Assembly (NCBI RefSeq): GCF_026151205.1
Contig: NC_087081.1
Coordinates: 14,725,840 to 14,789,839, forward strand
Origin: Bolinopsis microptera
Lineage: Eukaryota > Ctenophora > Tentaculata > Lobata > Bolinopsidae
Reading direction: 5' to 3'
DNA: 64,000 nucleotides
The position numbers and the translations under genes were made by a program. Below, piece after piece: positions 25,701 to 62,400 of this stretch; the first letter of the stretch is position 1, and the number at the start of each line of letters is the position of its first letter. Under the pieces are notes generated by a model that worked only from the letters and a program-made list of their open reading frames with translations, searched no databases and was not told the DNA's origin.

Positions 25701-25907
25701 ATATGAAACATCGTAACCGTCCACTTCTTTTACACGCAAATTCCTGGGAACGTTGCCAAAGCAGCTAATTCTTGGAATTTCTCCAACGCGTGGCGTGAGA
25801 AGTTGGCGACTAGCCAGCTACCCTTGTCCGTGCCCTAAAAATAGTATTGTTTTGCTTGCTCTCCTTCCAGCTCTTGTTCCTGCTAACGTTCAAGCTATTG
25901 CTCCACT

Positions 25908-34844: not shown

Positions 34845-34953
34845 ATGTTGTTGCGTCTTTCCCTTCTGGTGCTATGTATCGGGGGAGTTATAGCGAAACC
34901 TCACAGATCAGTCGGAATGAAAAACCTTATACTTCCCTCTGGGGAGAAGGATA
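34845..34953 (+). CDS. Gene A exon 1: signal peptide
   Basis: MLLRLSLLVLCIGGVIAKPH has a short basic start, a hydrophobic core and a likely cleavage after IA. The exon ends in phase 1 at GTAAGT. Confidence 0.85.
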
Positions 34954-37900
34954 GTAAGTACTTATCTGTTACATACATGTTACCATGACTGTTACATAGT
35001 ACATACATGTTACATTTTATCTTACGACTTTATATATAAGCATACTTCTCCATGTACTCATGATATAACGAATTAACCCTCAGAACCGAACATGTTGTTC
35101 ACGAAAGAACCCCGTCCCTCAACAATGACAACACTCGGTAGTTCAGTGACTCTCTCCTGTGCTGGAACTAGTAGTTTACCAACTGGGGAGCCAAGTGTTT
35201 CCTGGCTCTTTACTCCTAAAATAACTCCCGACATCAAGTTAGTACTCGATACTTTACTCCTAAAATAACTCCCGACATCAAGTTAGTACTCAATACTTCA
35301 CTCCTAAAATAACTCCCGACATCAAGTTAGTACTCGATACTTCACTCCTAAAATAACTCCCGACATCAAGTTAGTACTCGATACTTCACTCCTAAAATAA
35401 CTCCCGACATCAAGTTAGTACTCAATACTTCACTCCTAAAATAACTCCCGACATCAAGTTAGTACTCAATACTTCACTCCTAAAATAACTCCCGACATCA
35501 AGTTAGTACTCAATACTTCACTCCTAAAATAACTCCCGACATCAAGTTAGTACTCAATACTTCACTCCTAAAATAACTCCCGACATCAAGTTAGTACTCA
35601 ATACTTCACTCCTAAAATAACTCCCGACATCAAGTTAGTACTCAATACTTCACTCCTATAATAACTCCCGACATCAAGTTAGTACTCAATACTTCACTCC
35701 TAAAATAACTCCCGACATCAAGTTAGTACTCATTACTTCACTCCTAAAATAACTCCCGACATCAAGTTAGTACTTAATACTTCACTCCTAAAATAACTCC
35801 CGACATCAAGTTAGTACTCAATACTTCACTCCTAAAATAACTCCCGACATCAAGTTAGCACTCAATACTTCACTCCTAAAATAACTCCCGACATCAAGTT
35901 AGTACTCAATACTTCACTCCTAAAATAACTCCCGACATCAAGTTAGTACTCAATACTTCACTCCTAAAATAACTCCCGACATCAAGTTAGTACTCAATAC
36001 TTCACTCCTAAAATAACTCCCGACATCAAGTTAGTACTCAATACTTCACTCCTAAAATAACTCCCGACATCAAGTTAGTACTCAATACTTCACTCCTAAA
36101 ATAACTCCCGACATCAAGTTAGTACTCAATACTTCACTCCTAAAATAACTCCCGACATCAAGTTAGTACTCAATACTTCACTCCTAAAATAACTCCCGAC
36201 ATCAAGTTAGTACTCAATACTTCACTCCTAAAATAACTCCCGACATCAAGTTAGTACTCAATACTTCACTCCTAAAATAACTCCCGACATCAAGTTAGTA
36301 CTCAATACTTCACTCCTAAAATAACTCCCGACATCAAGTTAGTACTCAATACTTCACTCCTAAAATAACTCCCGACATCAAGTTAGTACTCAATACTTCA
36401 CTCCTAAAATAACTCCCGACATCAAGTTAGTACTCAATACTTCACTCCTAAAATAACTCCCGACATCAAGTTAGTACTCAATACTTCACTCCTAAAATAA
36501 CTCCCGACATCAAGTTAGTACTCAATACTTCACTCCTAAAATAACTCCCGACATCAAGTTAGTACTCAATACTTCACTCCTAAAATAACTCCCGACATCA
36601 AGTTAGTACTCAATACTTCACTCCTAAAATAACTCCCGACATCAAGTTAGTACTCAATACTTCACTCCTAAAATAACTCCCGACATCAAGTTAGTACTCA
36701 ATACTTCACTCCTAAAATAACTCCCGACATCAAGTTAGTACTCAATACTTCACTCCTAAAATAACTCCCGACATCAAGTTAGTACTCAATACTTCACTCC
36801 TAAAATAACTCCCGACATCAAGTTAGTACTCAATACTTCACTCCTAAAATAACTCCCGACATCAAGTTAGTACTCAATACTTCACTCCTAAAATAACTCC
36901 CGACATCAAGTTAGTACTCAATACTTCACTCCTAAAATAACTCCCGACATCAAGTTAGTACTCAATACTTCACTCCTAAAATAACTCCCGACATCAAGTT
37001 AGTACTCAATACTTCACTCCTAAAATAACTCCCGACATCAAGTTAGTACTCAATACTTCACTCCTAAAATAACTCCCGACATCAAGTTAGTACTCAATAC
37101 TTCACTCCTAAAATAACTCCCGACATCAAGTTAGTACTCAATACTTCACTCCTAAAATAACTCCCGACATCAAGTTAGTACTCAATACTTCACTCCTAAA
37201 ATAACTCCCGACATCAAGTTAGTACTCAATACTTCACTCCTAAAATAACTCCCGACATCAAGTTAGTACTCAATACTTCACTCCTAAAATAACTCCCGAC
37301 ATCAAGTTAGTACTCAATACTTCACTCCTAAAATAACTCCCGACATCAAGTTAGTACTCAATACTTCACTCCTAAAATAACTCCCGACATCAAGTTAGTA
37401 CTCAATACTTCACTCCTAAAATAACTCCCGACATCAAGTTAGTACTCAATACTTCACTCCTAAAATAACTCCCGACATCAAGTTAGTACTCAATACTTCA
37501 CTCCTAAAATAACTCCCGACATCAAGTTAGTACTCAATACTTCACTCCTAAAATAACTCCCGACATCAAGTTAGTACTCAATACTTCACTCCTAAAATAA
37601 CTCCCGACATCAAGTTAGTACTCAATACTTCACTCCTAAAATAACTCCCGACATCAAGTTAGTACTCAATACTTCACTCCTAAAATAACTCCCGACATCA
37701 AGTTAGTACTCAATACTTCACTCCTAAAATAACTCCCGACATCAAGTTAGTACTCAATACTTCACTCCTAAAATAACTCCCGACATCAAGTTAGTACTCA
37801 ATACTTCACTCCTAAAATAACTCCCGACATCAAGTTAGTACTCAATACTTCACTCCTAAAATAACTCCCGACATCAAGTTAGTACTCAATACTTCACTCC

Positions 37901-40900
37901 TAAAATAACTCCCGACATCAAGTTAGTACTCAATACTTCACTCCTAAAATAACTCCCGACATCAAGTTAGTACTCAATACTTCACTCCTAAAATAACTCC
38001 CGACATCAAGTTAGTACTCAATACTTCACTCCTAAAATAACTCCCGACATCAAGTTAGTACTCAATACTTCACTCCTAAAATAACTCCCGACATCAAGTT
38101 AGTACTCAATACTTCACTCCTAAAATAACTCCCGACATCAAGTTAGTACTCAATACTTCACTCCTAAAATAACTCCCGACATCAAGTTAGTACTCAATAC
38201 TTCACTCCTAAAATAACTCCCGACATCAAGTTAGTACTCAATACTTCACTCCTAAAATAACTCCCGACATCAAGTTAGTACTCAATACTTCACTCCTAAA
38301 ATAACTCCCGACATCAAGTTAGTACTCAATACTTCACTCCTAAAATAACTCCCGACATCAAGTTAGTACTCAATACTTCACTCCTAAAATAACTCCCGAC
38401 ATCAAGTTAGTACTCAATACTTCACTCCTAAAATAACTCCCGACATCAAGTTAGTACTCAATACTTCACTCCTAAAATACCTCCCGACATCAAGTTAGTA
38501 CTCAATACTTCACTCCTAAAATAACTCCCGACATCAAGTTAGTACTCAATACTTCACTCCTAAAATAACTCCCGACATCAAGTTAGCACTCAATACTTCA
38601 CTCCTATAATAACTCCCGACATCAAGTTAGCACTCAATACTTCACTCCTAAAATAACTCCCGACATCAAGTTAGCACTCAATACTTCACTCCTAAAATAA
38701 CTCCCGAAATCAAGTTAGTACTCAATAGTCAATACCTCATGAGATTTGAACTATGACAAGAAAATGCGCCCTGGATTGAGTCTGCTGATACCTGGTTACC
38801 TGGTTACCTGGTTACCTGGTTACCTGGTTACCTGGTTACCTGGTTACCTGGTTACCTGGTTACCTGGTTACCTGGTTACCTGGTTACCTGGTTACCTGGT
38901 TACCTGGTTACCTGGTTACCTGGTTACCTGGTTACCTGGTTACCTGGTTACCTGGTTACCTGGTTACCTGGTTACCTGGTTACCTGGTTACCTGGTTACC
39001 TGGTTACCTGGTTACCTGGTTACCTGGTTACCTGGTTACCTGGTTACCTGGTTACCTGGTTACCTGGTTACCTGGTTACCTGGTTACCTGGTTACCTGGT
39101 TACCTGGTTACCTGGTTACCTGGTTACCTGGTTACCTGGTTACCTGGTTACCTGGTTACCTGGTTACCTGGTTACCTGGTTACCTGGTTACCTGGTTACA
39201 AGGTTACCTGGTTACCTGGTTACCTGGTTACCTGGATACAAGGTTACCTGGTTACCTGGTTACCTGGTTACCTGGTTACCTGGTTACCTGGTTACCTGGT
39301 TACCTGGTTACCTGGTTACCTGGTTACCTGGTTACCTGGTTACCTGGTTACCTGGTTACCTGGTTACCTGGTTACCTGGTTACCAGGTTACCAGGTTACC
39401 AGGTTACCAGGTTACCAGGTTACCTGGTTACATGGTTACCTGGTTACCTGGTTACCTGGTTACCAGGTTACCTGGTTACCTGGTTACCTGGTTACCAGGT
39501 TACCTGGTTACCAGGTTACCTGGTTACCTGGTTACCTGGTTACCTGCTTACCTGGTTACCTGCTTACCTGGTTACCTGGTTACCTGGTTACCTGGTTACC
39601 AGGTTACCAGGTTACCTGGTTACCTGGTTACCTGGTTACCAGGTTACCTGGTTACCTGGTTACCTGGTTACCTGGTTACCTGGTTACCTGGTTACCTGGT
39701 TACCTGGTTACCTGGTTACCTGGTTACCAGGTTACCAGGTTACCAGGTTACCAGGTTACCTGGTTACATGGTTACCTGGTTACCTGGTTACCAGGTTACC
39801 TGGTTACCTGGTTACCAGGTTACCTGGTTACCTGGTTACCTGGTTACCAGGTTACCTGGTTACCAGGTTACCTGGTTACCTGGTTACCTGGTTACCAGGT
39901 TACCTGGTTACCAGGTTACCTGGTTACCTGGTTACCTGGTTACCTGGTTACCTGGTTACCTGGTTACCTGGTTACCAGGTTACCAGGTTACCTGGTTACC
40001 TGGTTACCTGGTTACCTGGTTACCAGGTTACCTGGTTACCAGGTTACCTGGTTACCTGGTTACCTGGTTACCAGGTTACCTGGTTACCTGGTTACCTGGT
40101 TACCTGGTTACCTGGTTACCTGGTTACCTGGTTACCTGGTTACCTGGTTACCCGGTTACCCGGTTACCTGGTTACCTGGTTACCTGGTAACCAGGTATTC
40201 TGTAGCCATCAGAGGAATATTTGTAAACTTCCTCTCAGATTGTGGGAGGGACTAGTAGGAGGGACTAGTGGGACACTGATTCTTGTAGTGTAACTATGGT
40301 AACTAGTTGTGTAATATTTATAAACTTCCCCTCAGATTGTGGGAGGGACTAGTAGGAGGGACCAGTGGGACACTGATTCTTGGTAACTTGCAGAAGAGCG
40401 AGGGAGGATATTACTTCTGTCAGATAACTGACGGTTACGGTTACAGCTTGATCAGCCGCGGAGCTCTTGTTATTGTCACTTGTTAGTGCTTATATATTTA
40501 TAATATAACAACGTATGGTATATAAATTATGTTGTTAGTGCTTTTCTGGATGACTTTTTAAACAAATATAATTATTGATGAAAGGATATGTCATTTATTT
40601 TACACTATTCCTTTCTCGAGTCAATATTAGAAAAACAGCTCGCAACAATTTATCATTATCTATCATCACATCATTAACAGCTATATTTGAGATTTCGTAA
40701 CTGCAGATTTGGATCCTGATTTTGGTGCGTATCCAGAAGAAAAGACCATCACAGAATCAAAAGCTTACATCAAGGTTCCGTGTCAGCCGCCAGCAAGTAA
40801 TCCGCCTGCAAAGATAAATTGGTATAAAGACGGAAAACTTATTGAGGTTAGTAACCAATAGTAACCAATAGTAACCAATAGTAACCAATAGTAACCAATA

Positions 40901-43900
40901 GTAACCAAGAGTAATCAATAGTAACCAATAGTAACCAATAGTAACGAATAATAACCAATAGTAACCAATAGTAACCAATAGTAACATATAGTAACCAATA
41001 GTAACCAATAGAAACCAATAGTAACCAATAGTAACCAATCGTAACCAAAAGTAACAAATAGTAACCAATAGTAACCAATAGTAACCAAATACTTTGAAGA
41101 GTTATAATTTGATTATAAATCGGGGATAATGGGTTTTAGATAGGTTTTGATGTCATAAATAAACACCCTTCAAAAAGTTGACAACATATTACCCCTCATT
41201 CAGAAAGTTGACACCTTATTACCCCTCATTCCAGAAAGTTGACACCTTATTACCCCTCATTTCAGAAAGTTTACACCTTTTTAGTTTTTACCCCTCATTC
41301 AGAAAGTTGACACCCTATTTACCCCTCATTTCAGAAAGTTGACACCTTATTACCCCTCATTCCAGAAAGTTGAGAATATGATACAAGAGTACGTGAGTCC
41401 CAACAAGTACGGTTCCCTGATAATCTTCAACCCGAGAACTAGTGACAGTGGTATGTACGCTTGTGAGGCCAGCAACATTAACGCTAACCCTGAAAAGAGG
41501 AAAACTAGCGAAGTTCTCATCGATATTAAAGGTAAAGCTCAAATTTTAATATGAGTTAAGTGATCATCAACATTGACGTTATTTAAGTCACTATTAGTAT
41601 TAACAACTCAGTTCTCTCACACGTAATCCTCTCAGTTCTCTCACACGTATTCCTTTCAGTTCTCTCACACGTATTCTCTCAGTTCTCTCACACGTATTCC
41701 TCTCAGTTCTCTCACACGTATTCCTTTCAGTTCTCTCACACGTATTCCCCTCAGTTCTATCACACGTATTCGCCTCAGTTCTATCACACATATTCCTCTC
41801 AGTTCTCTCACACGTATTCCTCTCAGTTCTCTCACACGTATTCCTTTCAGTTCTCTCACACGTATTCCTTTCAGTTCTCTCACACGTATTCTCTCAGTTC
41901 TCTCACACGTATTCCTTTCAGTTCTCTCACACGTATTCCTTTCAGTTCTCTCACACGTATTCCTTTCAGTTCTCTCACACGTATTCCTCTCAGTTCTCTC
42001 ACACATATTCCTCTCAGTTCTCTCACACGTATTCCTCTCAGTTCTCTCACACGTATTCCCCTCAGTTCTATCACACGTATTCGCCTCAGTTCTCTCACAC
42101 GTATTCCTCTCAGTTCTCTCACACGTATTCCTCCCAGTTCTCTCACACGTATTCCTTTCAGTTCTCTCACACGTATTCCTCTCAGTTCTCTCACACGTAT
42201 TCTCTCAGTTCTCTCACACGTATTCCTCTCAGTTCTCTCACACGTATTCCTTTCAGTTCTCTCACACGTATTCTCTCAGTTCTCTCACACGTATTCTCTC
42301 AGTTCTCTCACACGCATTCCTCTCAGTTCTCTCACACGTATTCCTCTCAGTTCTCTCACACGAATTCCCCTCAGTTCTCTCACATGTATTCCTCTCAGTT
42401 CTCTCACACGTATTCCTCTCAGTTCTCTCACACGTATTCCTCTCAGTTCACTCACACGTATTCCTCTCAGTTCTCTCACACGTATTCTCTCAGTTCTCTC
42501 ACACGTATTCCTCTCAGTTCTAATACACGTATTCCTCTCAGTTCTATCACACGTATTACTCTCATTTCTCTCACACGTATTCCTCCCAGTTCTCTCACAC
42601 GTATTCCTCTCAGTTCTCTCACACGTATTCCTCTCAGGTCTCTCACACGTATTCCTCTCAGTTCTCTCACATGTATTCCTCTCGGTTCTCTCACACATAT
42701 TCTTTCAGTTCTCTCACACGTATTCCTCTCAGTTCTCTCACATGTATTCCTCTCAGTTCTCTCACACGTATTCGCTCCGTTCTCTCACACGTATTCTCTC
42801 AGTTCTCTCACACGTATTCCTCTCAGTTCTCTCACACGTATTCCTCTCAGTTCTCTCACACGTATTCTCTCAGTTCTCTCACACGTATTCCTCTCAGTTC
42901 TCTCACACGTATTCCTCTCAGTTCTCTCACACGTATTCCTCTCAGTTCTCCCACACGTATTCCTCTCATTTCTCTCACACGTATTCTCTCAGTTCTCTTA
43001 CACGTATTCTCTCAGTTCTCTTACACGTATTCTCTCAGTTCTCTTACACGTATTCTCTCAGTTCTCTCACACGTATTCCTCTCAGGTCTCTCACACGTAT
43101 TCCTCTCAGTTCTCTCACACGTATTCTCTCAGTTCTCTCACACGTATTCCTCTCAGTTCTCTCACACGTATTCCTCTCAGTTATCTCACACGTATTCTCT
43201 CAGTTCTCTCACACGTATTCCTCTCAGTTCTCTCACACGTATTCCTCTCAGTTCTCTCACACGTATTCTCTCAGTTCTATCACACGTATTCCTCTCAGTT
43301 CTCTCACATGTATTCCTCTCGGTTCTCTCACACATATTCTTTCAGTTCTCTCACACGTATTCCTCTCAGTTCTCTCACATGTATTCCTCTCAGTTCTCTC
43401 ACACGTATTCCTCTCAGTTCTCTCACACGTATTCTCTCAGTTCTCTCACACGTATTCCTCTCAGTTCTCTCACACGTATTCCTCTCAGTTCTCTCACACG
43501 TATTCCTCTCAGGTCTCTCACACGTATTCCTCTCAGTTCTCTCACATGTATTCCTCTCGGTTCTCTCACACATATTCTTTCAGTTCTCTCACACGTATTC
43601 CTCTCAGTTCTCTCACATGTATTCCTCTCAGTTCTCTCACACGTATTCCTCTCAGTTCTCTCACACGTATTCTCTCAGTGCTCTCACACGTATTCCTCTC
43701 AGTTCTCTCACACGTATTCCTCTCAGTTCTCTCACACGTATTCCTCTCAGTTCTCCCACACGTATTCCTCTCATTTCTCTCACACGTATTCTCTCAGTTC
43801 TCTTACACGTATTCTCTCAGTTCTCTTACACGTATTCTCTCAGTTCTCTTACACGTATTCTCTCAGTTCTCTCACACGTATTCCTCTCAGTTCTCTCACA

Positions 43901-46900
43901 CGTATTCGCTCCGTTCTCTCACACGTATTCTCTCAGTTCTCTCACATGTATTCCTCTCAGTTCTCTCACACGTATTCCTCTCAGTTTTCTCACACGTATT
44001 CTCTCAGTTCTCTCACACGTATTCCTCTCAGTTTTCTCACACGTGTTCTCTCAGTTGAAGGCTCGGGAACGTACGCTCAGAAGTTTGTACAGGATCACGA
44101 TGTACTCGTTAACAAAGGAGAAGACGCGGTACTCCACGCCGGAGCTATTGGTTTCCCAGTGCCTAGCTACCGCTGGACTCTCGGCGTGTCTGTAGAAATA
44201 GATGTCAATCCTGGTAGCCGCTTTTCTACTGCTGACTTCGGGAGAGATCTTAGAATATCGTAAGTGTAGTTCTTAGTAAGTGTGGAAATAGTATTTGAAA
44301 CGCTCTAATTAGTGCTATTCTAGTGCTACATTAGAATTTGACAAAATTTTATTTCTGTTAAATTTGAGGGGCCTCCAAAGTCCAGGAATGTCTGAAGCTA
44401 GTATAAGGAATGTTTGAGGTAGAAGTACTGTTGTAGCACTATCACCTACTATTAGATGGCTGACTAACTATAATTACCACCCAGGGGTGTTCGCACTGAG
44501 GACCGGGGCACGTACTGGTGTCAGTACAAGAACGTGTACACGGACAGTGTCGCTGTAGTCAGACTCTACGTCAAGGGTTAGAAACTACTTTATTTATAAT
44601 CTACGTCAAGGGTTAGGAACTGCATTATTTATAAGTTACGTCAAGGGTTAGAAACTGTATTATTTATAATCTACGTCAAGGGTTAGAAACTGTATTAATT
44701 ATAAGTTACGTCAAGGGTTAGAAACTGTATTATTTATAATCTACGTCAAGGGTTAGAAACTGTATTAATTATAATCTACGTCAAGGGTTAGAAACTGTAT
44801 TATTTATAAGTTACGTCAAGGGTTAGAAACTGTATTATTTATAATCTACGTCAAGGGTTAGAAACTGCATTATTTATAAGTTACGTCAAGGGTTAGAAAC
44901 TGTATTATTTATAATCTACGTCAAGGGTTAGAAACTGTATTATTTATAATCTACGTCAAGGGTTAGAAACTGCATTATTTATAAGTTACGTCAAGGGTTA
45001 GGAACTGCATTATTTATAAGTTACGTCAAGGGTTAGAAACTGTATTATTTATAATCTACGTCAAGGGTTAGAAACTGCATTATTTATAAGTTACGTCAAG
45101 GGTTAGAAACTGTATTATTTATAATCTACGTCAAGGGTTAGAAACTGTATTATTTATAATCTACGTCAAGGGTTAGAAACTGCATTATTTATAAGTTACG
45201 TCAAGGGTTAGAAACTGTATTATTTATAAGCTACGTCAAGGGTTAGAAACTGCATTATTTATAAGTTACGTCAAGGGTTAGAAACTGTATTATTTATAAG
45301 TTACGTCAAGGGTTAGAAACTGTATTATTTATAATCTACGTCAAGGGTTAGAAACTGTATTATTTATAAGTTACGTCAAGGGTTAGAAACTGCATTATTT
45401 CTAAGTTACCGGTTACGTCAAGGGTTAGAAACTGCATTATTTTTAAGTTACGTCAAGGGTTAGAAACTGCATTATTTCTAAGTTACAAACCAAACAAATA
45501 TCACCAGGCTTTCTTGCATGACTGCAGGCCGCAGGGCGCAAAACAGAGTGATATATTTCACCTAATACACCCCCACTCTCAGAGGACATTTCGTTCAACA
45601 CAGTGTTGACAGAGCAGACAGTGGAGCACCTTACTCCGCTGACATTCGACTGTCAGTGTTCAGGGACCCCCTACACCAGCGGGGACCCTACTGCCCCTCC
45701 TTCTGTACTCTGGCTCAGAGACGGGCAACCTATTGTAGATGGCAAGAGGTTCAAGGTTCGTGTGCTTTTTGTAAAACTTTTGTTAGTAAGAATGTATGAT
45801 CTGTTGTAACTTTTGTTAAGTTTCATGTGGTGGTCTCTGTGTTACAGTTTGTAAAATAGTACATTAAAGTTTAATGTTAAGTAAGATAAACAACACAAGA
45901 AAGTGCAGAACCTGGTCACCTGGTCACCTGGTTACCTGGTTACCTGGTTACCTGGTCACCTGGTTACCTGGTCACCTGGTTACCTGGTCACCTGGTTACC
46001 TGGTCACCTGGTTACCTGGTCACCTGGTTACCTGGTCACCTGGTTACCTGGTCACCTGGTTACCTATTTACCTGGTTATCTGGTTACCTGGTCACCTTGT
46101 TACCTGGTCACCTTGTTACCTGGTCACCTGGTCACCTTGTCACCTGGTTACCTGGTTACCAGGTTACCTGGTTACCCCGTTACCTGGTTACCTGGTTACC
46201 TGGTTACCTGGTTACCCGGTTACCTGGTTACCTGGTTACCTGGTTACCTGGTTATCTGGTTACTTAGTTACGTTAACCTCAGGAGGAGGACGGTAGTCTG
46301 GTTATGTCCGGACTGGAAATGTCGGAGGCTGGGATGTACCAGTGTTTCTGCTACAACACCATGCAGATATCACAAACTTACATGCCTGTTTCTGTTAAAA
46401 GTAAGTTTCTAAGGTTCATTACTCAACATTCAACAGTTGCTGTAAGAGTAAGACCTTTTTTACTTTCATTTTCCGATGAATAAGAGAATAAGGGTAGGAA
46501 AAATATAAGTTTAAACTTTTCATGTTCAGCTCACGAAGTAAATTTAGCCTAACCCTCCCTGTAATATGACCCACACTTTCGTCCAGATATGACGATCCCA
46601 GTAAGTATTACCTGGTTACCTGGTTACCTGGTTACCTGGTTACCTGGTTACCTGGTTACCTGGTTACCTAACTCATGACCCACACTCTCGTCCAGATATG
46701 ACGATCCCAGTAAGTATTGACGGTAACGACAGAGCAGAGGGAGTGTACAACGAGAATATTCAGATATTGTGTCGGGCTAACGGATACCCGCTTCCTGTGG
46801 TCACGTGGTACAAAGATAACGAGGAGATCACTGCTGTATTTGATCCTAGGTGAGTCAGCTGAGTATTCTATCCTAGGTCAGTCAGCTGAGTATTCTATCC

Positions 46901-52900: not shown

Positions 52901-54165
52901 CCTGCTTTTATTTGACGTTGGAGAATTTTCAGAGACAGTCGGCCAAGTAGCGCGAAAAGCAAGACATCAGGCGCAGATAAGAAACCTAAGACAGTAGAAA
53001 ATGATGTGACTATGATCATTAATGATGTCAGTGACGGAGGTACAAATAGCTCACAAATTCTTGTTCTATAGCATTACCATAGTAGCCACATTACACTAAA
53101 ACTCTTGCAGTCAGTCTTAGTGTTTGTCTGAAATTACCTTTACTTGCATGTACACAGTGAAACATCTTCTGTAGCTAATCTAATAGCTCTCTAATTAATC
53201 TAATAGTTTTTCCTGAACCCAGGATCCTATAATAAAGGAAAAAAAGCTGTGGGTAACTGGTCTTACCGGTAAAACCTTTGTAAATAATCTAACATTTCTT
53301 GGGCAACTTTCTTATGATCCTCTTACTTTTGCTCACAAAACTAAATGATCTAAAGCTAAGCAAGCAGCTCCACTAGAGTTCGATAATGATATGCCCAACG
53401 GTAACCATGGTAACAATGACATGGTGATGCAAGGACCGGGGATGGTAATGGAGCAACCTGTGCCGGCCACATTTCTCTCTGATTTACCAAGTAGGCCCAC
53501 GGAAAATAGCGCGGACATGCCCGGAGTAGTAGTTGAGCAACCTGTTCCCGTCACTTTGTTCCCTAACATGCCACGTAAGTAGTTTAACTCACCAACCTAG
53601 GACTCGTACATCTCAGTATTAAATTACTAAGTTATTAGACTTGTCCTCAAACTAATATCTGCTAAAATCTGAAACAGAGCTATTTGTACCTCCCAGTACA
53701 GTACCATGGTAACTATACCTGGTTACCGTGGTAACTGTACCTGGTTACCGTGGTAACTGTACCTGGTTACCGTGGTAACTGTACGTTAAAGACATGTTCT
53801 AAAACTCCGTTTTAAAACTGGATCCTCGCAGGTGAACCAGACAGTTCTCCTAGTTCCACCTCCCCTTCAGAAGACGACAGTGACTCCACCAGCTACGGAT
53901 CTAGCACCAAAATAGTAAGGAGATTACTTGCAGCGGTTACTAAGCAGTTACTAATACTAAGCAGATATTAAGCAGCAATTAAGCAAATATTAGTGGAGCA
54001 GTTATTAGTGGAGCAGATATTAAGCAGTTATTCAGTGCGGCAGAACTAAAATAATAGAATAATTAATTTAGCGGAGCAGTTGTGGATCGGTGTGCTGTTT
54101 TTAGTTTAATCATTCTAATTCTTCAGGTGAAGAAGGTGAAAAAGTCGAAAGTGGGGCCGTCCTAA
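34845..54165 (+). CDS. Gene A: Ig-superfamily type I receptor, 20 exons, 1201 aa
   Basis: Exons, all with GT/AG ends and matching phase: 34845-34953, 35084-35237, 40336-40481, 40707-40846, 41366-41531, 44055-44259, 44485-44576, 45583-45755, 46283-46400, 46696-46849, 47980-48134, 48838-49113, 49781-49879, 50693-50821, 51299-52196, 52614-52771, 52935-53039, 53368-53574, 53832-53914, 54127-54165. The total is 3606 nt with no internal stop. The product has a signal peptide (1-17), six Ig-like domains (38-629), an acidic stalk (630-662), one membrane helix (about 671-693) and a 508-residue tail. Ig boundaries fall in phase 1, as usual for extracellular modules; Ig1-5 are each split by an internal intron. 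A role in cell adhesion or recognition is inferred from architecture; no orthologue is named. Most introns carry arrays copied from their own splice sites. Confidence 0.88.
35084..40481 (+). CDS. Gene A Ig domain 1 (exons 2-3)
   Basis: Residues about 38-136. Strand-B Cys62 (SSVTLSCAG), Trp77 (VSWLF) and strand-F Cys116 (SEGGYYFC) give a canonical Ig core. The two exons are split in phase 2 by a 5.1 kb intron filled with a 44-bp and an 8-bp array. A broken copy of the head of exon 3, with its acceptor, lies at 40217-40275. Confidence 0.85.
35182..38730 (+). repeat. 44-bp array carrying the exon-2 donor, ~80 copies
   Basis: The unit is the last coding part of exon 2 (ACTCCTAAAATAACTCCCGA, CATCAA), its donor GTTAGT and a short intron piece (ACTCAATACTTC). 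Copy 1 is the real exon end. Copies after the first few are almost identical over more than 3 kb, which suggests recent expansion or homogenisation. 44 is not a multiple of 3, so use of any later donor would shift the frame. Confidence 0.95.
38786..40196. repeat. 8-bp array (GGTTACCT)n, ~176 copies
   Basis: Octamer array, pure GGTTACCT on the left and mixed with GGTTACCA on the right. It produces long false ORFs. The same octamer or its inverse AGGTAACC forms arrays in at least six other introns of genes A and B. Confidence 0.97.
40217..40279 (+). pseudogene. Partial copy of exon 3 head
   Basis: An acceptor and the first ~55 bp of exon 3 (CTCTCAGATTGTGGGAGGG to CACTGATTCTTG) precede the real exon by about 115 bp. 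The copy breaks off into intron sequence, so it cannot replace the exon. Confidence 0.85.
40707..41531 (+). CDS. Gene A Ig domain 2 (exons 4-5)
   Basis: Residues 137-238. Cys162, Trp (INWYKDGK) and Cys216 (SDSGMYACEAS) form a standard I-set-like core. The exons are split in phase 0 by a 519-bp intron. Confidence 0.87.
40849..41090 (+). repeat. 10-bp array (GTAACCAATA)n at the exon-4 donor
   Basis: About 24 decamers start 2 bp into the intron, directly after GAG|GTTAGTAACCAATA. Each unit is donor-like. Confidence 0.95.
41176..41365 (+). repeat. ~31-bp array carrying the exon-5 acceptor
   Basis: Six copies of TTACCCCTCATTCCAG plus AAAGTTGACACC. The last copy is the real acceptor and the start of exon 5 (AAAGTTGAG). 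Confidence 0.93.
41610..44057 (+). repeat. 24-bp array carrying the exon-6 acceptor, ~100 copies
   Basis: The unit CTCTCACACGTATTCCTCTC plus AGTT (23 or 24 bp) ends in a pyrimidine-rich acceptor, CTCTCAG|TT. The last copy is the true acceptor of exon 6 (CTCTCAG|TTGAAGG). Larger blocks are repeated within it. Long frames on both strands are artefacts. Confidence 0.95.
44055..44576 (+). CDS. Gene A Ig domain 3 (exons 6-7), one core Cys missing
   Basis: Residues 239-337. The B-strand motif reads AVLHAGAIGFPVPSYRW with Ala267 where Cys is usual, while Cys319 (RGTYWCQYKN) is present. The domain therefore cannot form the normal disulfide and has a free Cys unless it pairs elsewhere. Confidence 0.82.
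44563..45487 (+). repeat. 35-bp array carrying the exon-7 donor, ~26 copies
   Basis: The unit holds the end of exon 7 (CTACGTCAAGG), its donor GTTAGA and AACTGTATTATTTATAA. The first copy is the real junction. Confidence 0.95.
45583..46400 (+). CDS. Gene A Ig domain 4 (exons 8-9)
   Basis: Residues 338-434. Core Cys361 and Cys416 are each followed two residues later by another Cys (FDCQCSG and YQCFCYN). The matching spacing suggests a second bond between Cys363 and Cys418. Confidence 0.85.
45910..46268. repeat. 8/16-bp array (CTGGTTAC/CTGGTCAC)
   Basis: Octamer array in intron 8, related to GGTTACCT, with regular alternation of TTAC and TCAC in the left half. Confidence 0.95.
46568..46685 (+). 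repeat. Duplicated acceptor and head of exon 10 around an octamer array
   Basis: CCACACTTTCGTCCAG|ATATGACGATCCCAGTAAGT at 46570-46605 is a near copy of the real exon-10 start (46680-46715). About seven GGTTACCT octamers lie between. Confidence 0.92.
46696..48134 (+). CDS. Gene A Ig domain 5 (exons 10-11)
   Basis: Residues 435-537. Cys460 (IQILCRANGYPLP), Trp (VTWYKDNEE) and Cys517 (DADAGILTCRA). The exons are split in phase 2 by a 1.1 kb intron made mostly of a 27-bp array carrying the exon-10 donor. Confidence 0.85.
46842..47815 (+). repeat. 27-bp array carrying the exon-10 donor, ~35 copies
   Basis: The unit CAGCTGAGTATTCTATCCTA plus GGTCAGT copies the exon end and donor (GATCCTAG|GTGAGT). 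Most copies have GTCAGT in place of GTGAGT, which weakens the donor. A 30-bp variant with GTGAAATAG is mixed in. Confidence 0.95.
48224..48837 (+). repeat. Acceptor and head of exon 12, four extra copies
   Basis: Each block of 130-166 bp has CCCCCTCAG|GTCACGAGATA, about 50 nt of exon 12 (TCTCCCAGCATCTCCCTCTC...), a short AGGTTACC array and TGATGCTATTGATTCTG. The fifth copy is the true exon 12 start. Confidence 0.95.
48838..49113 (+). CDS. Gene A Ig domain 6 (exon 12), Cys-less
   Basis: Residues 538-629, the only Ig domain here coded by a single exon. The fold pattern is clear (FEAVAYGYPTPAVTWYKG, then SSDTGLYVVKANNGVG), but both core Cys positions are replaced, by Ala562 and Val611. Loss of both partners together is common in some Ig domains of titin or NCAM type. 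Confidence 0.85.
49145..49440. repeat. 9-bp array (AGTAACTTT)n
   Basis: About 33 nonamers in the 5' half of intron 12. Confidence 0.95.
49500..49780 (+). repeat. ~55-bp array carrying the exon-13 acceptor
   Basis: About five copies of GTGTTAGTTACGTTGTGAGG, TGTAATATGTTTAACAC and TGTTTGAAGTGAA. The real acceptor TTGTTTGCAG is the last; another copy near 49670 also reads TTGTTTGCAG. Confidence 0.9.
49781..49879 (+). CDS. Gene A exon 13: acidic Tyr-rich stalk
   Basis: TDEEPVISYDDTTDYYDPAD, a juxtamembrane linker rich in Asp and Tyr and a candidate for tyrosine sulfation. It ends in phase 1 at GTTAGT; reading through would give a stop at once. The exon tail and donor are duplicated at about 49909-49946. 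Confidence 0.82.
50600..50692 (+). repeat. 29-bp array carrying the exon-14 acceptor
   Basis: Three copies of CCAGGTTTGTAACCATAGC plus ACCCATATTG; the last ATTGCCAG is the real acceptor. Confidence 0.9.
50693..50821 (+). CDS. Gene A exon 14: transmembrane helix
   Basis: Helix SGGVALILIIAILVLLYVLI at about 674-693, followed by the stop-transfer KQKEKKNY. This sets a type I topology with the Ig domains outside. Confidence 0.9.
51138..51298 (+). repeat. 10-bp array (GTGTTAGCAT)n at the exon-15 acceptor
   Basis: About 16 decamers; the last is GTTAGCAG, which gives the acceptor of exon 15. Confidence 0.95.
51299..54165 (+). CDS. Gene A cytoplasmic tail (exons 15-20)
   Basis: About 496 residues, mostly disordered: Ser/Thr/Pro-rich with basic clusters. 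Exon 15 (898 nt) has two TLLSNT strings and a 31-bp hAT-like insertion. Exon 17 starts after TTTTCAGAG, where only the second AG keeps the frame. Exon 18 has an internal duplication (PGMVMEQPVPATF and PGVVVEQPVPVTLF). Exons 19-20 end EDDSDSTSYGSS and VKKVKKSKVGPS. No SH2, ITIM or PDZ-binding motif is evident. Confidence 0.85.
51847..51893 (+). mobile_element. 31-bp hAT-like miniature insertion in coding exon 15
   Basis: GATAAAAG (51847-51854) is repeated at 51886-51893. Between them lie 31 bp that start CAGGGGTG and end CACCCCTG, perfect 8-bp inverted ends. An 8-bp target duplication and CAGGG-type termini are features of hAT transposons. Insert plus duplication is 39 bp, 13 codons, and the frame is kept (about residues 891-904, including RGVGSGGAPL). 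A related terminus, CAGGGGTGTAGGAAG, occurs at 55218. Confidence 0.75.
52255..52470. repeat. CTACTACTACATTCATA-type array
   Basis: Imperfect repeats of (CTA)n with CATTCATA in intron 15, not touching a splice site. Confidence 0.85.
52791..52885. repeat. 8-bp array (CTGGTTAC)n
   Basis: About 11 octamers in intron 16, flanked by a direct repeat ACAAGTAGTTACCTG. Confidence 0.92.
53700..53785. repeat. 24-bp repeat (CTGGTTACCGTGGTAACTGT)
   Basis: Three copies in intron 18, built on the GGTTACC/GGTAAC words. Confidence 0.9.
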
Positions 54166-54201
54166 GTGCTTTAAGTGAAGATATTCAATTCAGATCTTCA
54201 G

Positions 54202-54272
54202 AATAAAACGACAAAGCGAAGCCGCAGCACAGATGAAAACGCGTCGTCAACAATCCATCTTCATTGAATAAA
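54202..54272 (+). terminator. Polyadenylation signals of gene A
   Basis: AATAAA at 54202-54207 and 54267-54272, 37 and 102 bp after the stop; another AATAAA follows near 54320. Confidence 0.6.
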
Positions 54273-54329
54273 CAAATAATCAATTATAAGGGTAATTGCG
54301 GATTTGTTTTTATAAATAGAATAAAATAC

Positions 54330-54787
54330 ACTCATTATCAACTTGAAAAATGGAACATAATTTGCAAACTGATTTATCTCCTGAATAATTTGAAATTATT
54401 CGCATTATTTCAAATAATTTGCAAGTAATTTGACCAAACACACCAAAATTTGTTAATAATAATGATCATTTTGTTACAATAATATTAAAAATATATTTTG
54501 ACTGACATCAAAAAGGTGAAGGGAAACATTTTCAGTTTGAAACTAAGTGATAATAGTTTTTATCCTAGATATTTACAATTTTATAAAAGCTTTTGTTTAT
54601 GATGATTACTCAAAACTGTATCGATTTTTTACATTGATCTTGTTTTATCATACAACGCAGCTTTTCTCGAATCTACGGCAGCAATTTATCACAATGTTTA
54701 TTTCTTTGGACGTTTGTAATTTTCAAAAAAGTGGCAAAAAAAGTCATCCACATGACACATCTCGGAATTAGTGACTTCTGCACACAG

Positions 54788-54823
<36 letters not shown>

Positions 54824-56465
54824 CCCCCCTGTGTGCAGTAATTCAATGTTCCTTGGAAGCTTAAAGGACTTCGACGCTCGAACTATCATTCTTGCTTCGC
54901 ATCGAATTAGGAGATCGTTGCTCGATCTGGAAGGGTTGACATCGTCAATCAAAATGTTCCATTTTCATGGTACTTACAACGTTGAATCATTGTAACCATG
55001 GTAACTGTACCTGATTACCATCCTAATACACAATAATTATAACTTACGTCTATTAGTATTATAATAAGCATCTGCATATTCAGAAATCATAATATAAAAA
55101 GAGATGTTGGAAGATTTTTGAAGAGGAGCTTTTCTGCCGTCCCCTTGACCGAAAATTCGCGGTTTCGACCGAAATTTTGACCAGTGACCATTCAGTGAAG
55201 TCGGTAGGGTAAAAATCAGGGGTGTAGGAAGAGGTCCCCCCCCCCCCCCCCCCCCCCCCCCCCATAAATCTGGAAAAGGGGCCTTATTTGGCATATCCTG
55301 TCTAACTGCAGTCTAACTGCACGATAGTTGCCGATTTATAAAATTCAGATAACATTGCTAGTTACTCTTCTGTGCCGTGTTCAGTATTTTCAAGTAAATT
55401 AGCAGGACACCATCCAGCAGGCATGAACCAGAAATCTGTTAATTTATATTACATATTCTGATATTAAACGGGTATAAAATGACATCGTGATCCGGCGTGA
55501 TCAATTATTTTAACTGAAATACAACGGCTGCATCCCTGACTTAATAACTAAAGATAAGAGGCGTATATATATTAGGACATTTGTAATTTGATCAAATTTA
55601 AAATTTTGGTGTGAGCTGTGAGCTGGCATGAACCAGAAATCTGATAGTTTATATTACATGTTCCAATATTACATGTCAGCAGCAGAATTGTCAGTTGCCC
55701 GGAGACGTAGTATCCAGCCCGTTTAATTAATTTAAACAAATTTATCTTTACAATATCTATTTGGGAGTAGAATGCTTGTACACATTGTGCCGTGTTTGTT
55801 CATTTGAAATTTATACAAAATGGTAATAATTTTGCATTAAAAGATAATCATGCCAATGCAATGAAAAATGAATTTTTTCTTTGTTTTTTCTTATGATAAA
55901 TACAAGTACTTACTCAATACTACTACTATAATACTATAATACTCATAGCACATTGGTTACAAAGTAAACAAAGACTCAATGTGATGTTTACAATTCATAT
56001 CTTTTAGTAAAATAAACAATCTCCCACTCATCTCACCCTTACTACGGGTTTACTTACTTTCCACTCAGTCGTAAGAGGCTGCTTGTTTTGTGCGTAGTGA
56101 GGTAATTGTTGCGATTTACCTTACTTTCTACCTTGATAGTATAATTATACGTAAACCTTTTAAAGTTTTAAGGCCCCACAAACAAACAAACAAACGTCAC
56201 AAAGTGTTAACAACTTCTGTGACGCATATTTTACTGATTTAGAAATTATTATTTATATTATACGTCACTCAGTCCATTACAGTTATAAATACCTCAAAAT
56301 CGATTAGGGAATGCCATAAGCCTCATAAGCTCCATATGAAAAACGAACGAAATTGTTATTAAATCATCGTATCTCTTATATGTTTCTAACCCAACTCCAC
56401 TCAGAAATTGTTATTATTAAAGTTTTATTTTAAGCTGATTTTGAAACAATTTCTCTTCGCAAGTC
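54330..56465. other. Intergenic, two poly-C tracts
   Basis: No supported gene. A C run of nearly 40 at about 54788-54828 is flanked by inverted CTGCACACAG and CTGTGTGCAG. A second C run at about 55237-55263 follows CAGGGGTGTAGGAAG, a hAT-like end. CATGAACCAGAAATCTG occurs twice (about 55424 and 55627). The frames here are artefacts of the homopolymers. Confidence 0.5.
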
Positions 56466-56467
56466 AA

Positions 56468-56482
56468 ATGCAAAGTGGGTGA
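56468..56482 (+). promoter_or_regulatory. Four-codon upstream ORF overlapping gene B start
   Basis: ATGCAAAGTGGGTGATG: the short uORF stops at TGA whose A is the first base of the gene B ATG. Such UGAUG overlaps can couple termination to restart. A trans-splice or leader intron could remove it. Confidence 0.4.
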
Positions 56483-59400
56483 TGCTGAAACAGTTGACTC
56501 TGCTAGCCCTGCTTCTCGGAGCGCAGTGCTTAACCCGAGAGGAGCTTGAAGCGTTTACACCTAGACACCCTGACTACACAGATTTTAATACTAATCTCAA
56601 GTCTGAGGTATGTTTACCTCAGGTAACCAGGTAACCAGGTAACCAGGTAACCAGGTAACCAGGTAACCAGGTAACCAGGTTTACACCTAGACACCCTGAC
56701 TACACAGATTTTAATACTAATCTCAAGTCTGAGGTTTGTGCATATTTCCGATATTCTCGAAAATTCAGAGCAATTGTATTTAAGTGTATTTCAGTGCACT
56801 CAATGTTTCCTCTATTCTCGAAAATTCAGAGCAATTGTATTTAAGTGTATTTCAGTGCACTCAATATTTCCGATATTCTCGATAATTCAGAGCAATGTTT
56901 ATTGTTTGAGTGTATTTCAGTCATGACAACATTTCCTAACGATTGTGGTGATTTTATATAGCTAAGGATCTAATTTTTATATCCTGAATTCAACGATATG
57001 ATTTTGTTCTTAACATAATAAAATAAATATAGGAAACGGCTTGTACTTCATGCTCTGAAAAGCAAGATCAACTCAGCATGAACACACCGTTACCATGTCA
57101 ACACACCGTTACCATGTCAACTAATCCATCTCCCGCAGGTTTACGGTCGAGATAATGCAGATGGATCACAAACAATCTACACTAACGGGATTCCGTCTCA
57201 TCCTACGTGGGAGTTCCCCCAGGCCTCTGGAAATCCCAACGAATTGAAAGTATATTGTTGCTTTAATCCGAGCAGCTATTTCACTATCCGAAGGGTCATG
57301 TAAACGACGGTCATCATTTTTGTGCTTGTTATTCTGGCAGCTATTTCATTGAAAATGTCTTGAACTGTATAAATTGTATACAGAATATCACGATTTGCAA
57401 TATTTGCTTGTAAATATTGGTAAGTTGGAATCTTAGCTTATACAAACCTTTAGTTTTATTCGTCTAATGTAGTTGTGAATGTATTGCTATTGTTAAATAG
57501 TAACTAGAGTATATTGCAGGAGATCAGAACAACGTTAAACATATACTCTGAACCTCGTATGAGAGCTGAGCCTTTGAGATGTATACCAATGGGTTTCATA
57601 GGAATCGCAACTTCTGGTAGGTACTGGGTAATCTATGGTGTAATTTGGTTAAGCAACGTTTAGATTTAAATCGCATATACCGAATAGCAAATTTCAGTGC
57701 AATTCTGATCAAAGTACTGAATTTATAATACCAAACAAATCTCCCCAGGAGTAGCAATAGATGGATGGTTCCCGGCAGAACGTGGATGTCCGGAAGTAGC
57801 CGAGTTTGAGGAACTGGATATTTGCGAGGGACACCCGTCACCAAACGGGCAATATCACTACCACCACTACTCTCCCTGTGTGCAGATGCCAACTTGTGGA
57901 GTACCCTCAAGTGAGACAAGTAACCAGGTAACCAGGTAACCAGGTAACCAGGTAACCAGGTAATATCACTACCACCACTACTCTCCCTGTGTGCAGATGC
58001 CAACTTGTGGAGTACCCTCAAGTGAGACAAGTAACCAGGTAACCAGGTAACCAGGTAACCAGGTAACCAGGTAACCAGGTAACCAGGTAATATCACTACC
58101 ACCACTACTCTCCCTGTGTGCAGATGCCAACTTGTGGAGTACCCTCAAGTGAGACAAGTAACCAGGTAACCAGGTAACCAGGTAACCAGGTAACCAGGTA
58201 ACCAGGTAATATCACTACCACCACTACTCTCCCTGTGTGCAGATGCCAACTTGTGGAGTACCCTCAAGTGAGACAAGTAACCAGGTAACCAGGTAACCAG
58301 GTAACCAGGTAACCAGGTAATATCACTACCACCACTACTCTCCCTGTGTGCAGATGCCAACTTGTGGAGTACCCTCAAGTGAGACAAGTAACCAGGTAAC
58401 CAGGTAACCAGGTAACCAGGTAACCAGGTAATATCACTACCACCACTACTCTCCCTGTGTGCAGATGCCAACTTGTGGAGTACCCTCAAGTGAGACAAGT
58501 AACCAGGTAACCAGGTAACCAGGTAATCAGGTAACCAGGTAACCAGGTAACCAGGTAACCAGGTAACCAGGTAACCAGGTAACCAGGTAACCAGGTAACC
58601 AGGTAACCAGGTTACCAGGTAACCAGGTAACCAGGTAACCAGGTAACCAGGTAACCAGGTAGCCAGGTAACTAGGTAACCAGGTAACCAGGTAACCAGGT
58701 AACCAGGTGACCAGGTAACAAGGTAACCTATAGAGTAATTTCATTAATTCACCAGATATTGTATAAAACCCCTTCATCAGTTCATCGGTTTGTTCAACTT
58801 TAGTCGGGATACTTTCAGCGATATGGGGCGTTGCAATAGACGGTATTCCAATATACGGACCATTTGATGAGGACGGAAGACAGCTAACTAAAGAGGACCT
58901 GGACGAGTGCGGAGGAAAGTACGACAGTACTGGGAGGTACAAGTATCACATGACTGTGGATCCTCCTTACTCCCTCGCTTGTCTCCGTGGTGAGGTGAGA
59001 GACTTTTGTTTAGCTCAATCGAGGATTAACAGTAATTACTGCTGGAATAAACGTGTCAACAAACAGGGTTGTTTGTGAACTAATTTATTTGTGATAGGAT
59101 TTTAATCTAGTTATCTTCAGATTAGGAGTGATCTAGGAAAATCGGCCGGAACTTTCTTCTGTGCTTGTCCTTTTGATGATACTATGTTTGTGGACAGTAA
59201 GTCTTACATTTTCATATACTTCTCATATCGTAAATTAATCAATTAAACGAATAAGTATTATATTCTATGCAACATAACTTATGAATAAGATACCATTATT
59301 ACTATGATAATATGATAATATGATACCATTATTACTATGATAATATGATAATATGATACCATTATTACTATGATAATATGATAATATGATACCATTATTA

Positions 59401-62400
59401 CTATGATAATAAGATACCATTATTACTATGATAATATGATAATATGATACCATTATTACTATGATAATATGATAATATGATAATATGATAATATTCTGAG
59501 TAAGTACACATTTCTACAGGATCTGGAGATAAGAGTCACGGGTACGATAACAGAGGAAGTAGACCGTCTAGTATATGTCAGTTCAATACTGACGGGGACC
59601 AGCCTGCCCAGTAAGTAGACCGTCTAGTATATGTCAGTTCAGTACTGACGGGGACCAGCCTGCCCAGTAAGTAGACCGTCTAGTATATGTCAGTTCAGTA
59701 CTGACGGGGACCAGCCTGCCCAGTAAGTAGACCGTCTAGTATATGTCAGTTCAGTACTGACGGGGACCAGCCTGCCCAGTAAGTAGACCGTCTAGTATAT
59801 GTCAGTTCAGTACTGACGGGGACCAGCCTGCCCAGTAAGTAGACCGTCTAGTATATGTCAGTTCAGTACTGACGGGGACCAGCCTGCCCAGTAAGTAGAC
59901 CGTCTAGTATATGTCAGTTCAGTACTGACGGGGACCAGCCTGCCCAGTAAGTAGACCGTCTAGTACATGTCAGTTCAGTACTGACGGGGACCAGCCTGCC
60001 CAGTAAGTAGACCGTCTAGTATATGTCAGTTCAGTACTGACGGGGACCAGCCTGCCCAGTAAGTAGACCGTCTAGTATATGTCAGTTCAGTACTGACGGG
60101 GACCAGCCTGCCCAGTAAGTAGACCGTCTAGTATATGTCAGTTCAGTACTGACGGGGACCAGCCTGCCCAGTAAGTAGACCGTCTAGTATATGTCAGTTC
60201 AGTACTGACGGGGACCAGCCTGCCCAGTAAGTTTAAAGTACGGATAAGTTTCCAATTCAGACAAAATTATAACATTCTTTTCGAACGTCTGTCTTCCAAG
60301 AAAATTATTTGCTGAGAATCCTCATTTGGCAGATGCAATGAATCGTATGATAAGAACTACGACATTGGATACGAATGGGTTAAACAAGACAGGACCATCA
60401 AACTAGCTCCGTGTTGTCCAGCTGGGAACGCTTGCGGAGACAGCTGTAAAACTGTAAATAAACAGGCAACTTGGTCGTTTAGCTCCGGACAGTCTATGCA
60501 ACGTCTATGCAACGTCCATGCAACAACAAAAGAACCGTCTATGCAACGTCTATGCAACGTCCCTGCACAATGAACACTCTATGCACACTCCCTGCACGGT
60601 CAGTCTATGCAACGTCTATGCAACGTCTATGCAACGTCTATGCAACGTCCCTGCACAGTACCATATGAACACCGGCTACTAGCCGGCTACTAGCCGGCTA
60701 CTAGCCGGCTAGTAGCCACTTTTGTAATAACAGCTCCTCAACTTCACATTACCAACCGGCTACTAACCGGCACTTGAAAAGTGGTCACTAGCCGGCTACT
60801 AACCGGCTACTAGCCGGCTAGTGACCACAAAGTGGCTACTAACCGGCTACTAAGCGGTCACTAGCCGGCTATTAGCCGAGCTCTAAAGCAGACCTACTAG
60901 TAGCCGGTTCCAAACCGGCTACTAGCCGGCACTTAGAAAGCGGTCACTAGCCTTAGCGGTCACTTGCATAAGAATCCCTGCAGGGACGTGATCAGTGAAA
61001 ACGATGTGATCCCCAATTGAGTTCTAACGGATCACCGCAATCGTTAGGATTTGACGTGATACCATGCATGATAGATCAGATCAAATAACCATGGGTATAA
61101 CGAGCCCTGACGGACCTGCAGGCCTTTCCAAAAACTATATAAGTAGCATTAGCCACCAACTTATTTATCCCTCGTTCTTTACATCGTTCTTTACTATACA
61201 TCATTCTTTACTCTTAATCAACATGCGGACCAGAAGAAACAGATATACCGCTCCTACACCTGCTCCTAAATGCGATCACTGTGGGTCTACCGGTCACATC
61301 TCCTCAATCTGCTCCAGAAGGACTTACAGTCCCGACCTTCCCTCCCTCAGATGTACTGCCTGCATTCGGACTGTTAGAAGCGCTTACAGAGAGGACCCAG
61401 ATTATCTACAGATTATAGTACACATCGATCCGTGCTCCCTGCACTCTACACCCACAAAGACCCAAAAAAAAGGCTAGCGACCGCTTTTCGAGTGCCGGCT
61501 AGTAGGTCCGCTTAAGAGCCGGCTAGTGACCGGTTAGTAGCCGGTTAGTAGCCACTTGGTGGTTACTAGCCGGTTAGTAGCCGGTTAGTAGCCGGCTAGT
61601 GACCGCTTTCTAAGTGCCGGCTAGTAGCCGGTTTGGAACCGGCTACTAGTAGGTCCGCTTAAGAGCCGGCTAGTGACCGGTTAGTAGCCACTTGGTGGTT
61701 ACTAGCCGGTTAGTAGCCGGCTAGTGACCGCTTTCTAAGTGCCGGCTAGTAGCTGGTTTGGAACCGGTTTGGAACCGGCTACTAGTAGGTCTGCTTTAGA
61801 GCTCGGCTAATAGCCGGCTAGTGACCGGTTAGTAGCCGGTTAGTAGCCACTTGGTGGTTACTAGCCGGTTAGTAGCCGGTTAGTAGCCGGCTAGTGACCG
61901 CTTTTCAAGTGCCGGCTAGTAGCCGGTTTAGAACCGGCTACTAATAGGTCTGCTTTAGAGCCGGCTAGTGACCGGCTAGTGACCGCTTAGTAGCCGGTTA
62001 GTAGCCACTTTGTGGTCACTAGCCGGCTAGTAGCCGGTTAGTAGCCGGCTAGTGACCACTTTTCAAGTGCCGGTTAGTAGCCGGTTGTTAATGTGAAGTT
62101 GAGGAGCTGTTATTACAAAAGTGGCTACTAGCCGGTGTTCATATGGTACTGTGCAGGGACGTTGCATAGACGTTGCATAGACGTTGCATAGACTGACCGT
62201 GCAGGGAGTGTGCATAGAGTGTTCATTGTGCAGGGACGTTGCATAGACGTTGCATAGACGGTTCTTTTGTTGTTGCACGGACGTTGCATAGACGTTGCAT
62301 AGACTGTCCGGAGCTAAACGACCAACTTCCCAATAAACACTTGAAATAACATGCCCACTAAGTTTCATTTCGTGCTTCGTAAACTTTACAATATTCATAG

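Follow-up and report, generated by a model that had tools for sequence, protein, structure and literature searches.

Why do minisatellites coincide so often with the splice junctions of two unrelated neighbouring genes? This question is raised by a stretch of 64,000 nucleotides from the ctenophore Bolinopsis microptera (GCF_026151205.1, NC_087081.1, positions 14,725,840 to 14,789,839), which is called the window here and lies on contig C10 of an assembly of 264,652,675 bases in 232 contigs. Its genes A and B contain 27 introns, which are numbered by gene (A2 is intron 2 of gene A). The first-pass annotation of the sequence had claimed that at least 13 of these introns hold tandem repeats containing or abutting their own 5' or 3' splice site. 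In this study, we believe that these repeats are probably minisatellites of the kind called mirages in amphioxus, formed by untargeted local duplication, expansion and selection at the mRNA level, with insertion of a satellite in four introns.

Gene models and junction repeats

The reading frame of gene A (34845..54165, plus strand) is open over 20 exons and encodes 1198 amino acids, with a signal-peptide-like start, immunoglobulin (Ig) domains, a transmembrane segment and a long tail. Pfam returned Ig_3 and I-set matches (Ig_3 E-value 1e-60), and the signal peptide and membrane segment were identified by eye. Gene B (56482..63274, plus strand) is open over 9 exons and encodes a YHYH-domain protein of 591 amino acids (PF14240, E-value 1.9e-12). 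The splice junctions were predicted from frame, phase and domain homology, and all 27 introns begin with GT and end with AG. Tandem repeats detected with Tandem Repeats Finder (TRF) make up 40% of the window and, with B8 excluded, 75% of the intronic sequence in genes A and B.

A TRF array was counted as touching when it lay within 2 bp of a splice site. Such arrays touch seven donors (A2, A4, A7, A10, A13, B4 and B7) and six acceptors (A4, A5, A11, A12, A13 and A14). Direct duplications of at least 20 bp with neither copy in a TRF array were found at three further junctions, the A2 acceptor, the A9 acceptor and the B1 donor, and none was found in the interiors of the 26 introns searched (B8 excluded). 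The repeated unit contains the exon-intron boundary in 11 TRF arrays, with 2-69 bp of exon in the array, and in the 3 duplications. Eight donors and eight acceptors are affected in two unrelated genes, and all eight acceptors belong to gene A. These are the 16 junctions named in the first pass, whose donor and acceptor lists and count of 13 introns were confirmed by TRF and the duplication search, with the A4 donor and the A14 acceptor as weak cases.

At the A2 donor, a 44-mer is repeated 80 times (35208..38727; this and all features below lie on the plus strand unless stated), with 30 bp of exon 2 in the array and the exact donor 9-mer in 75 further copies. The A7 array (35-mer, 26 copies, 44566..45486) includes 11 bp of exon 7 and has the exact donor 9-mer in 23 further copies. 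The B7 array (56-mer, 12 copies, 59557..60232) includes 54 bp of exon 7 and has 11 exact extra donors. The A10 array (27-mer, 34 copies, 46836..47798) includes 14 bp of exon 10; its first copy reads GTGAGT and most copies read GTCAGT, which possibly reflects selection against decoys in this array alone. At A13, a 62-mer with 23 bp of exon 13 occurs twice (49848..49974). The B1 donor (56553..56739) lies in 61-bp target copies (56553-56613 and 56679-56739) that flank an array of CAGGTAAC at 56620-56680. At B4 (57851..58728), a 111-bp composite unit, consisting of 69 bp of the YHYH exon and an GTAACCAG array, is repeated 5.4 times and followed by a longer 8-mer array. The A4 case is weak, as its decamer array (TAGTAACCAA, 24 copies, 40849..41088) begins 2 bp inside the intron and none of its copies matches the true donor in quality.

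At the acceptors, the A5 array is a 24-mer in 103 copies (41607..44056), pyrimidine-rich, with YAG in most units and 2 bp of exon 6. A 70-bp segment spanning the A2 acceptor and 47 bp of exon 3 occurs twice (40216-40285 and 40313-40382). The A4 array (31-mer, 6.4 copies, 41169..41373) includes 8 bp of exon 5, the A13 array (29-mer, 3.4 copies, 50597..50694) includes 2 bp of exon 14, and the A12 array (52-mer, 5 copies, 49526..49780) ends at the splice site with 0 bp of exon. At A9 (46566..46718), 44-bp target copies (46566-46609 and 46675-46718) flank an array of GTTACCTG at 46608-46669. At A11 (48221..48886; TRF and duplication search), the junction segment is repeated with 49 bp of exon 12, and its copies are separated by CAGGTTAC/CAGGTAAC arrays. 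The A14 decamer array (GTGTTAGCAT, 17 copies, 51139..51309; 11 bp counted as exon) abuts a weak site; a second in-frame AG, seen by eye, lies 16 bp downstream, and the choice of acceptor is ambiguous. Outside the introns, a 48-mer array of 26 copies with several YAG sites per unit (33348-34604) lies immediately 5' of the start codon of gene A and may contain the 5' or trans-splice acceptor of this gene.

Splice-site copies and the reading frame

Inner array copies about as good as the true site were counted as alternative sites. Among the 164 alternative donors one keeps the frame, as do five of the 38 alternative acceptors, all in A5; the frame is broken at the other 196 of the 202 sites. Since nearly all inner copies break the frame, they would act as decoys rather than spares and would hardly be productive; intact open frames would require the exon-proximal copy. 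Seven arrays lie wholly within exons, and their periods (18, 15, 15, 18, 21, 18 and 21) are all divisible by 3, for which the chance is 0.0005 if the arrays are independent (five of the seven are in exon B9). Such a pattern would be expected if repeats across junctions are tolerated, their extra copies being removed by splicing, and if repeats that break the frame are eliminated.

The account that we favour has the following steps. Short tandem duplications would arise at almost any position in genes whose introns were mostly 100-300 bp, and would grow to tens of copies by unequal exchange. Selection would retain the duplications that leave the mRNA intact. The outermost copy, beside the true exon, would keep a working splice site and the rest would leave with the intron, and wholly exonic duplications would survive only in multiples of three. 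Four of the 13 introns would differ in that their duplicated junction is the target, with one copy before and one after a CAGGTAAC array (X-array-X), a structure presumably multiplied by unequal exchange in A11 and B4, and also at a locus elsewhere in the genome (L008). The satellite step may be an insertion, or filler at a staggered break whose fill-in would give an X of variable length. The repeated local duplication process proposed in the first pass holds for most arrays; a dispersed satellite contributes as well.

Similar repeats in other animals

The accessible parts of two amphioxus reports describe mirages as minisatellite-like tandem duplications of 5' and 3' exon-intron boundaries with units of about 10-160 bp, found in Adh3, the globins BflGb6/9 and TnC, with similar repeats in PGBD5 (PMC3087553, PMC3902484). 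In the same text, regular splicing is reported to be undisturbed, the mirages at Adh3 are somatically unstable, and mirages are proposed to make introns (PMC3087553, PMC3902484). The repeats of genes A and B resemble them in the duplication of both 5' and 3' boundaries, in unit length, in the many copies of splice signals and in the involvement of several unrelated genes. They differ in their ctenophore host, in reaching about 100 copies, in occupying 13 of 27 introns of two neighbouring genes, and in having a dispersed 8-bp satellite at the core of four cases. Undisturbed splicing and unstable length are amphioxus observations; the arrays here are known from the sequence of one assembly. The phenomenon is of an already known kind.

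In human genes within segmental duplications, minisatellites at exon-intron boundaries are described, in the part of the report available, as altering gene structure and sometimes making new introns (PMC2812944). The human cases concern recent paralogs and few copies, unlike the long intronic arrays here. No report of splice-junction minisatellites in ctenophores was found in the part of the literature that our searches covered. The available text of the Bolinopsis genome paper has a single passage on tandem repeats, in which introns are not mentioned (PMC11797021), and that of the Hormiphora genome gives 13% tandem repeats with no mention of junction repeats (PMC8527503).

A dispersed satellite at the junctions

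It had been stated that the junction repeats are not the spread of one element. This does not hold throughout, as one 8-mer, CAGGTAAC, lies in seven introns (A2, A8, A9, A11, A16, B1 and B4; mixed with CAGGTTAC in A11) and is flanked by junction copies in four of them (A9, A11, B1 and B4). The other three arrays are on the minus strand. The A2 satellite (38789..40196) is distant from the junctions and that of A8 (45910..46271) ends 11 bp 5' of the acceptor, and the flank test found no flank duplication at either. At A16 (52792..52881), a 9-bp flank repeat was seen by eye and is not significant. A 24-mer of CAGGTAAC has 2083 + 2438 occurrences in the genome, and its reversed control has 0.

The flanks of 37 array loci were compared. 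Nine came from L008 and L029-L035, six from the window, and 22 from twenty loci sampled in listing order, skipping five places on C3 and C4 where matches cluster and stopping before the later contigs. Direct flank duplications occurred in 19 of the 37 loci, against 0.4 expected (scores above 99% of 1296 swapped-flank pairs), although the weakest positive, L059, lies under the null maximum. The flank copies are 13-85 bp long, and both copies lie at most 2 bp from the array in 10 of the 19 loci and at most 10 bp in 15. With reverse-complemented flanks, 1 of 37 loci passed the 99% level, narrowly. In the TRF-based flank test, 13 of 36 arrays of the 8-mer were positive vs 4 of 129 other arrays (P = 4e-7), and 11 vs 1 at the 99.9% level. 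A transposon insertion with a fixed target-site duplication was rejected, as it predicts a constant length and the flank copies do not have one. The insertion-like behaviour of the satellite, an array between direct target duplications, is the newest point of this study.

Outside the window there are 16 positive loci, and in five of them X lies over a probable splice junction: L032, L034 (1466-1514) and L045, judged from coding potential and splice-site scores, and L008 and L053, judged by eye. For the remaining 11, a junction position was not demonstrated. The five loci are no proof of targeting, because by our estimate a similar number would arise by chance if all 16 were in genes whose introns measure about 300 bp. 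Pfam was run on seven putative coding stretches beside these arrays. The match was firm for spectrin (L031) only; that to TMEM175 (L030) was slightly below the cut-off, the NHE label of L034 is weak (E-value 0.012), L042 had a chance-level match only, and L032, L045 and L008 had none.

These data raise a broader possibility, which we hold tentatively. (CAGGTAAC)n may spread in the genome by insertions, each duplicating tens of target bases; splicing would hide the insertions at junctions, and unequal exchange would multiply junction and satellite into composite arrays. Fill-in at break ends is reported, in the accessible part of one study, to make small tandem duplications (PMC8355091). Such fill-in would give tandem copies, and X-filler-X where filler DNA is captured; here the filler would be one satellite, and the mechanism is a proposed one.

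Two further observations concern repeats of this type. Two GTAACC-type arrays with another unit sequence (L054 235-323 and L055 475-612) share a 13-bp repeat, CAGCTGCGTACAG, which flanks each of them left and right, and L054 and L055 look like duplicated loci. The idea that the 8-mer might be telomeric was examined at six contig ends (L036-L041, 1500 bases each). CAGGTAAC is absent from all of them and TTAGGG occurs once at most in any of them, but the assembly shows no telomeres there.

Geometry and possible targeting

The first-pass annotation had offered two explanations, a preferential start of duplication at splice junctions or selection for spare splice sites, and neither was established. 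For the former, a null model was used in which each unit was placed randomly to overlap its intron, with arrays collapsed to one unit. Intron B8 was excluded from the placement tests because it contains a mobile-element-like block. The 19 array-bearing introns collapse to 81-713 bp (median 173) and the junction units are mostly 24-152 bp, so a large share of units would touch a junction without targeting. With the best periods of TRF, 12-13 of 28 arrays touch against 8.0-9.2 expected (P = 0.026-0.058 at tolerances of 0-5 bp), and 13 of the 22 arrays of at least 80 bp touch against 7.8 expected (P = 0.006). With base units, the 12-13 of 28 stand against 7.0-8.4 (P = 0.012-0.033). About half of the coincidence is therefore geometry, and the P values here and below are optimistic because the selection of the window was based on this feature. 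A uniform distribution is compatible with the exon share of the unit (Kolmogorov-Smirnov (KS) P = 0.72, n = 14), and the sharp peak of array edges at 0 bp that the first pass had named as its criterion is absent in these few cases.

Control introns were derived from genes in other parts of the genome that match myosin or kinesin in Pfam, at the myosin places and at seven of the kinesin gene places. The protein kinase family (PF00069) was not used as an intron source, as many of its matches are single blocks; many glutamate receptor and protein kinase genes in this genome match as one long open block and look single-exon-like. One glutamate receptor gene (L063) has ML032222a iGluR as its best match among solved structures (212 bits, against 189 for the best kainate receptor), the ML prefix denoting Mnemiopsis leidyi; a second (L062) matches kainate receptors best, and the 60 matches listed for it include no ctenophore chain. 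In the first set, 66 adjacent exon pairs gave 48 introns, of which 43 passed, and in the second set 12 passed from 15 further pairs. The 43 introns contain 29 arrays, one of which touches within 2 bp (1.69 expected), and the 12 further introns contain one array, which does not touch. Among control arrays with units of at least 20 bp (n = 9), one touches against 0.87 expected. No direct duplication of at least 20 bp was found in the 43 introns; the further 12 were not searched. Arrays make up 9% of the control intron bases vs 75% in genes A and B, and junction repeats occur in 1 of 55 control introns vs 13 of 27 in the window (P = 5e-7). The data indicate that the repeat density of the window is exceptional and that targeting is not visible in the control introns.

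Several results weigh against untargeted duplication sorted by splicing. When the three duplications are added to the base units, 15-16 of 29 events touch a junction against 8.2-9.6 expected (P = 0.0018-0.0061), and for units of at least 20 bp the figure is 14 of 18 against 6.9-7.6 (P = 0.0003-0.0012). The residual excess over geometry in the window is 1.7- to 2-fold. The three non-array duplications of at least 20 bp found in the 26 introns are all located at junctions, and random placement is not a full explanation for this or for the excess. The acceptor arrays lean to little exon content (seven cases, KS P = 0.18). The control tests targeting weakly, since its arrays are far fewer and shorter than those of the window, and at a tolerance of 3 bp two arrays touch in the 43 introns. 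On the splicing side, the true site is outscored by 46 of the 164 donors and 32 of the 38 acceptors in the alternative set. Site strength would therefore not suffice to explain why the outermost copy is used, provided that the frames are right, and something further, for example exon definition, would have to favour it. The junctions themselves are predicted, and the copy in use is judged from the open frames.

Some of these figures are what a preferential start of duplication at exon-intron junctions would predict, for example through more breaks, R-loops or replication stalls there. The excess of the longer units, the three non-array duplications and the contrast with the control introns all speak for it. 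However, the window was chosen for the feature, the control introns, themselves a weak test, show no excess, and the edge peak is missing. We consider this explanation doubtful, and untargeted duplication followed by selection on the mRNA remains our preferred account.

Less likely readings: intron gain and spare splice sites

The junction arrays, CAGGTAAC above all, might instead have created new introns, either by gain through tandem duplication of the Rogers type or by introner-like insertion. Like the satellite, introners are dispersed sequences found in introns, with duplicated targets and ends that look like splice sites, and the satellite motif CAG|GTAAC can be read as an acceptor followed by a donor. 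Also for intron gain, intron positions vary among the YHYH relatives of gene B, which are intronless on C3 (L064) and split on C10 and C11; the paralogs L064-L066 have some of its intron positions and lack others. The intronless paralog (C3:19290217-19291176, 48% identity) is near full-length with an open frame of 396 amino acids, and looks like a retrocopy or a case of complete intron loss. Against intron gain, no satellite-only intron was seen among the 37 loci, where gene models outside the window are rough. By eye, intron B5 seems common to L066, and B4 has a slightly shifted counterpart of the same phase in L065, which suggests that these introns predate the arrays.

Unlike introners, the arrays are found within introns or next to them, occur in both orientations and have targets of variable length. 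Orientation to the gene, assigned by hand, was sense in 6 cases and antisense in 9, where introners would be expected in sense. Because both orientations occur, the splice-like look of the motif is not required. Junction-associated satellites are sense in 6 of 10 cases vs 0 of 5 others (P = 0.044), a hand-assigned comparison that we do not rely on. Creation of introns by the arrays is thus unlikely, and the sequences compared tend to favour repeat growth in existing introns.

It is very improbable that the extra copies are selected as spares or to strengthen exon definition, as the exact donor 9-mers retained at A2, A7 and B7 might suggest, because 163 of 164 donors and 33 of 38 acceptors break the frame, most A10 copies start with GTCAGT unlike the true donor, and recent expansion alone predicts identical copies.

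Other features of the window

Intron B8 contains a palindromic block of about 1.87 kb (60465-62331) with nested inverted arms of 187 nt (96% complementary) and 174 nt (98%), which resembles a mobile element within the intron. The arms surround a small open reading frame (ORF) at 61.2-61.5 kb, which we take to be zinc-knuckle-like. A minus-strand ORF at 63551-64000 resembles part of a LINE-type retrotransposon protein. Upstream of both genes, a perfect inverted repeat of 1013 bp (24270-26404; arms 24270-25282 and 25392-26404, 100% complementary, 109-nt spacer) carries mirrored ORF pieces and is either an artefact of the assembly or an inverted duplication of very recent origin. No match to Rfam and no tRNA was found in the window.

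Significance

The finding adds a comb jelly, a member of the lineage proposed as sister to other animals, to the lancelets in which minisatellites at splice junctions were described. The density of the repeats offers a natural test of splice-site choice, as one intron can contain as many as 75 exact extra copies of its donor. The geometric null, which sets unit length against collapsed intron length, provides a yardstick that claims of targeting across the genome would have to exceed. In the X-satellite-X structure, we see a possible way for a satellite to scatter through genes without a transposase. If the spread of CAGGTAAC is as we tentatively propose, it would be a mobile satellite that colonises genes via their splice sites.

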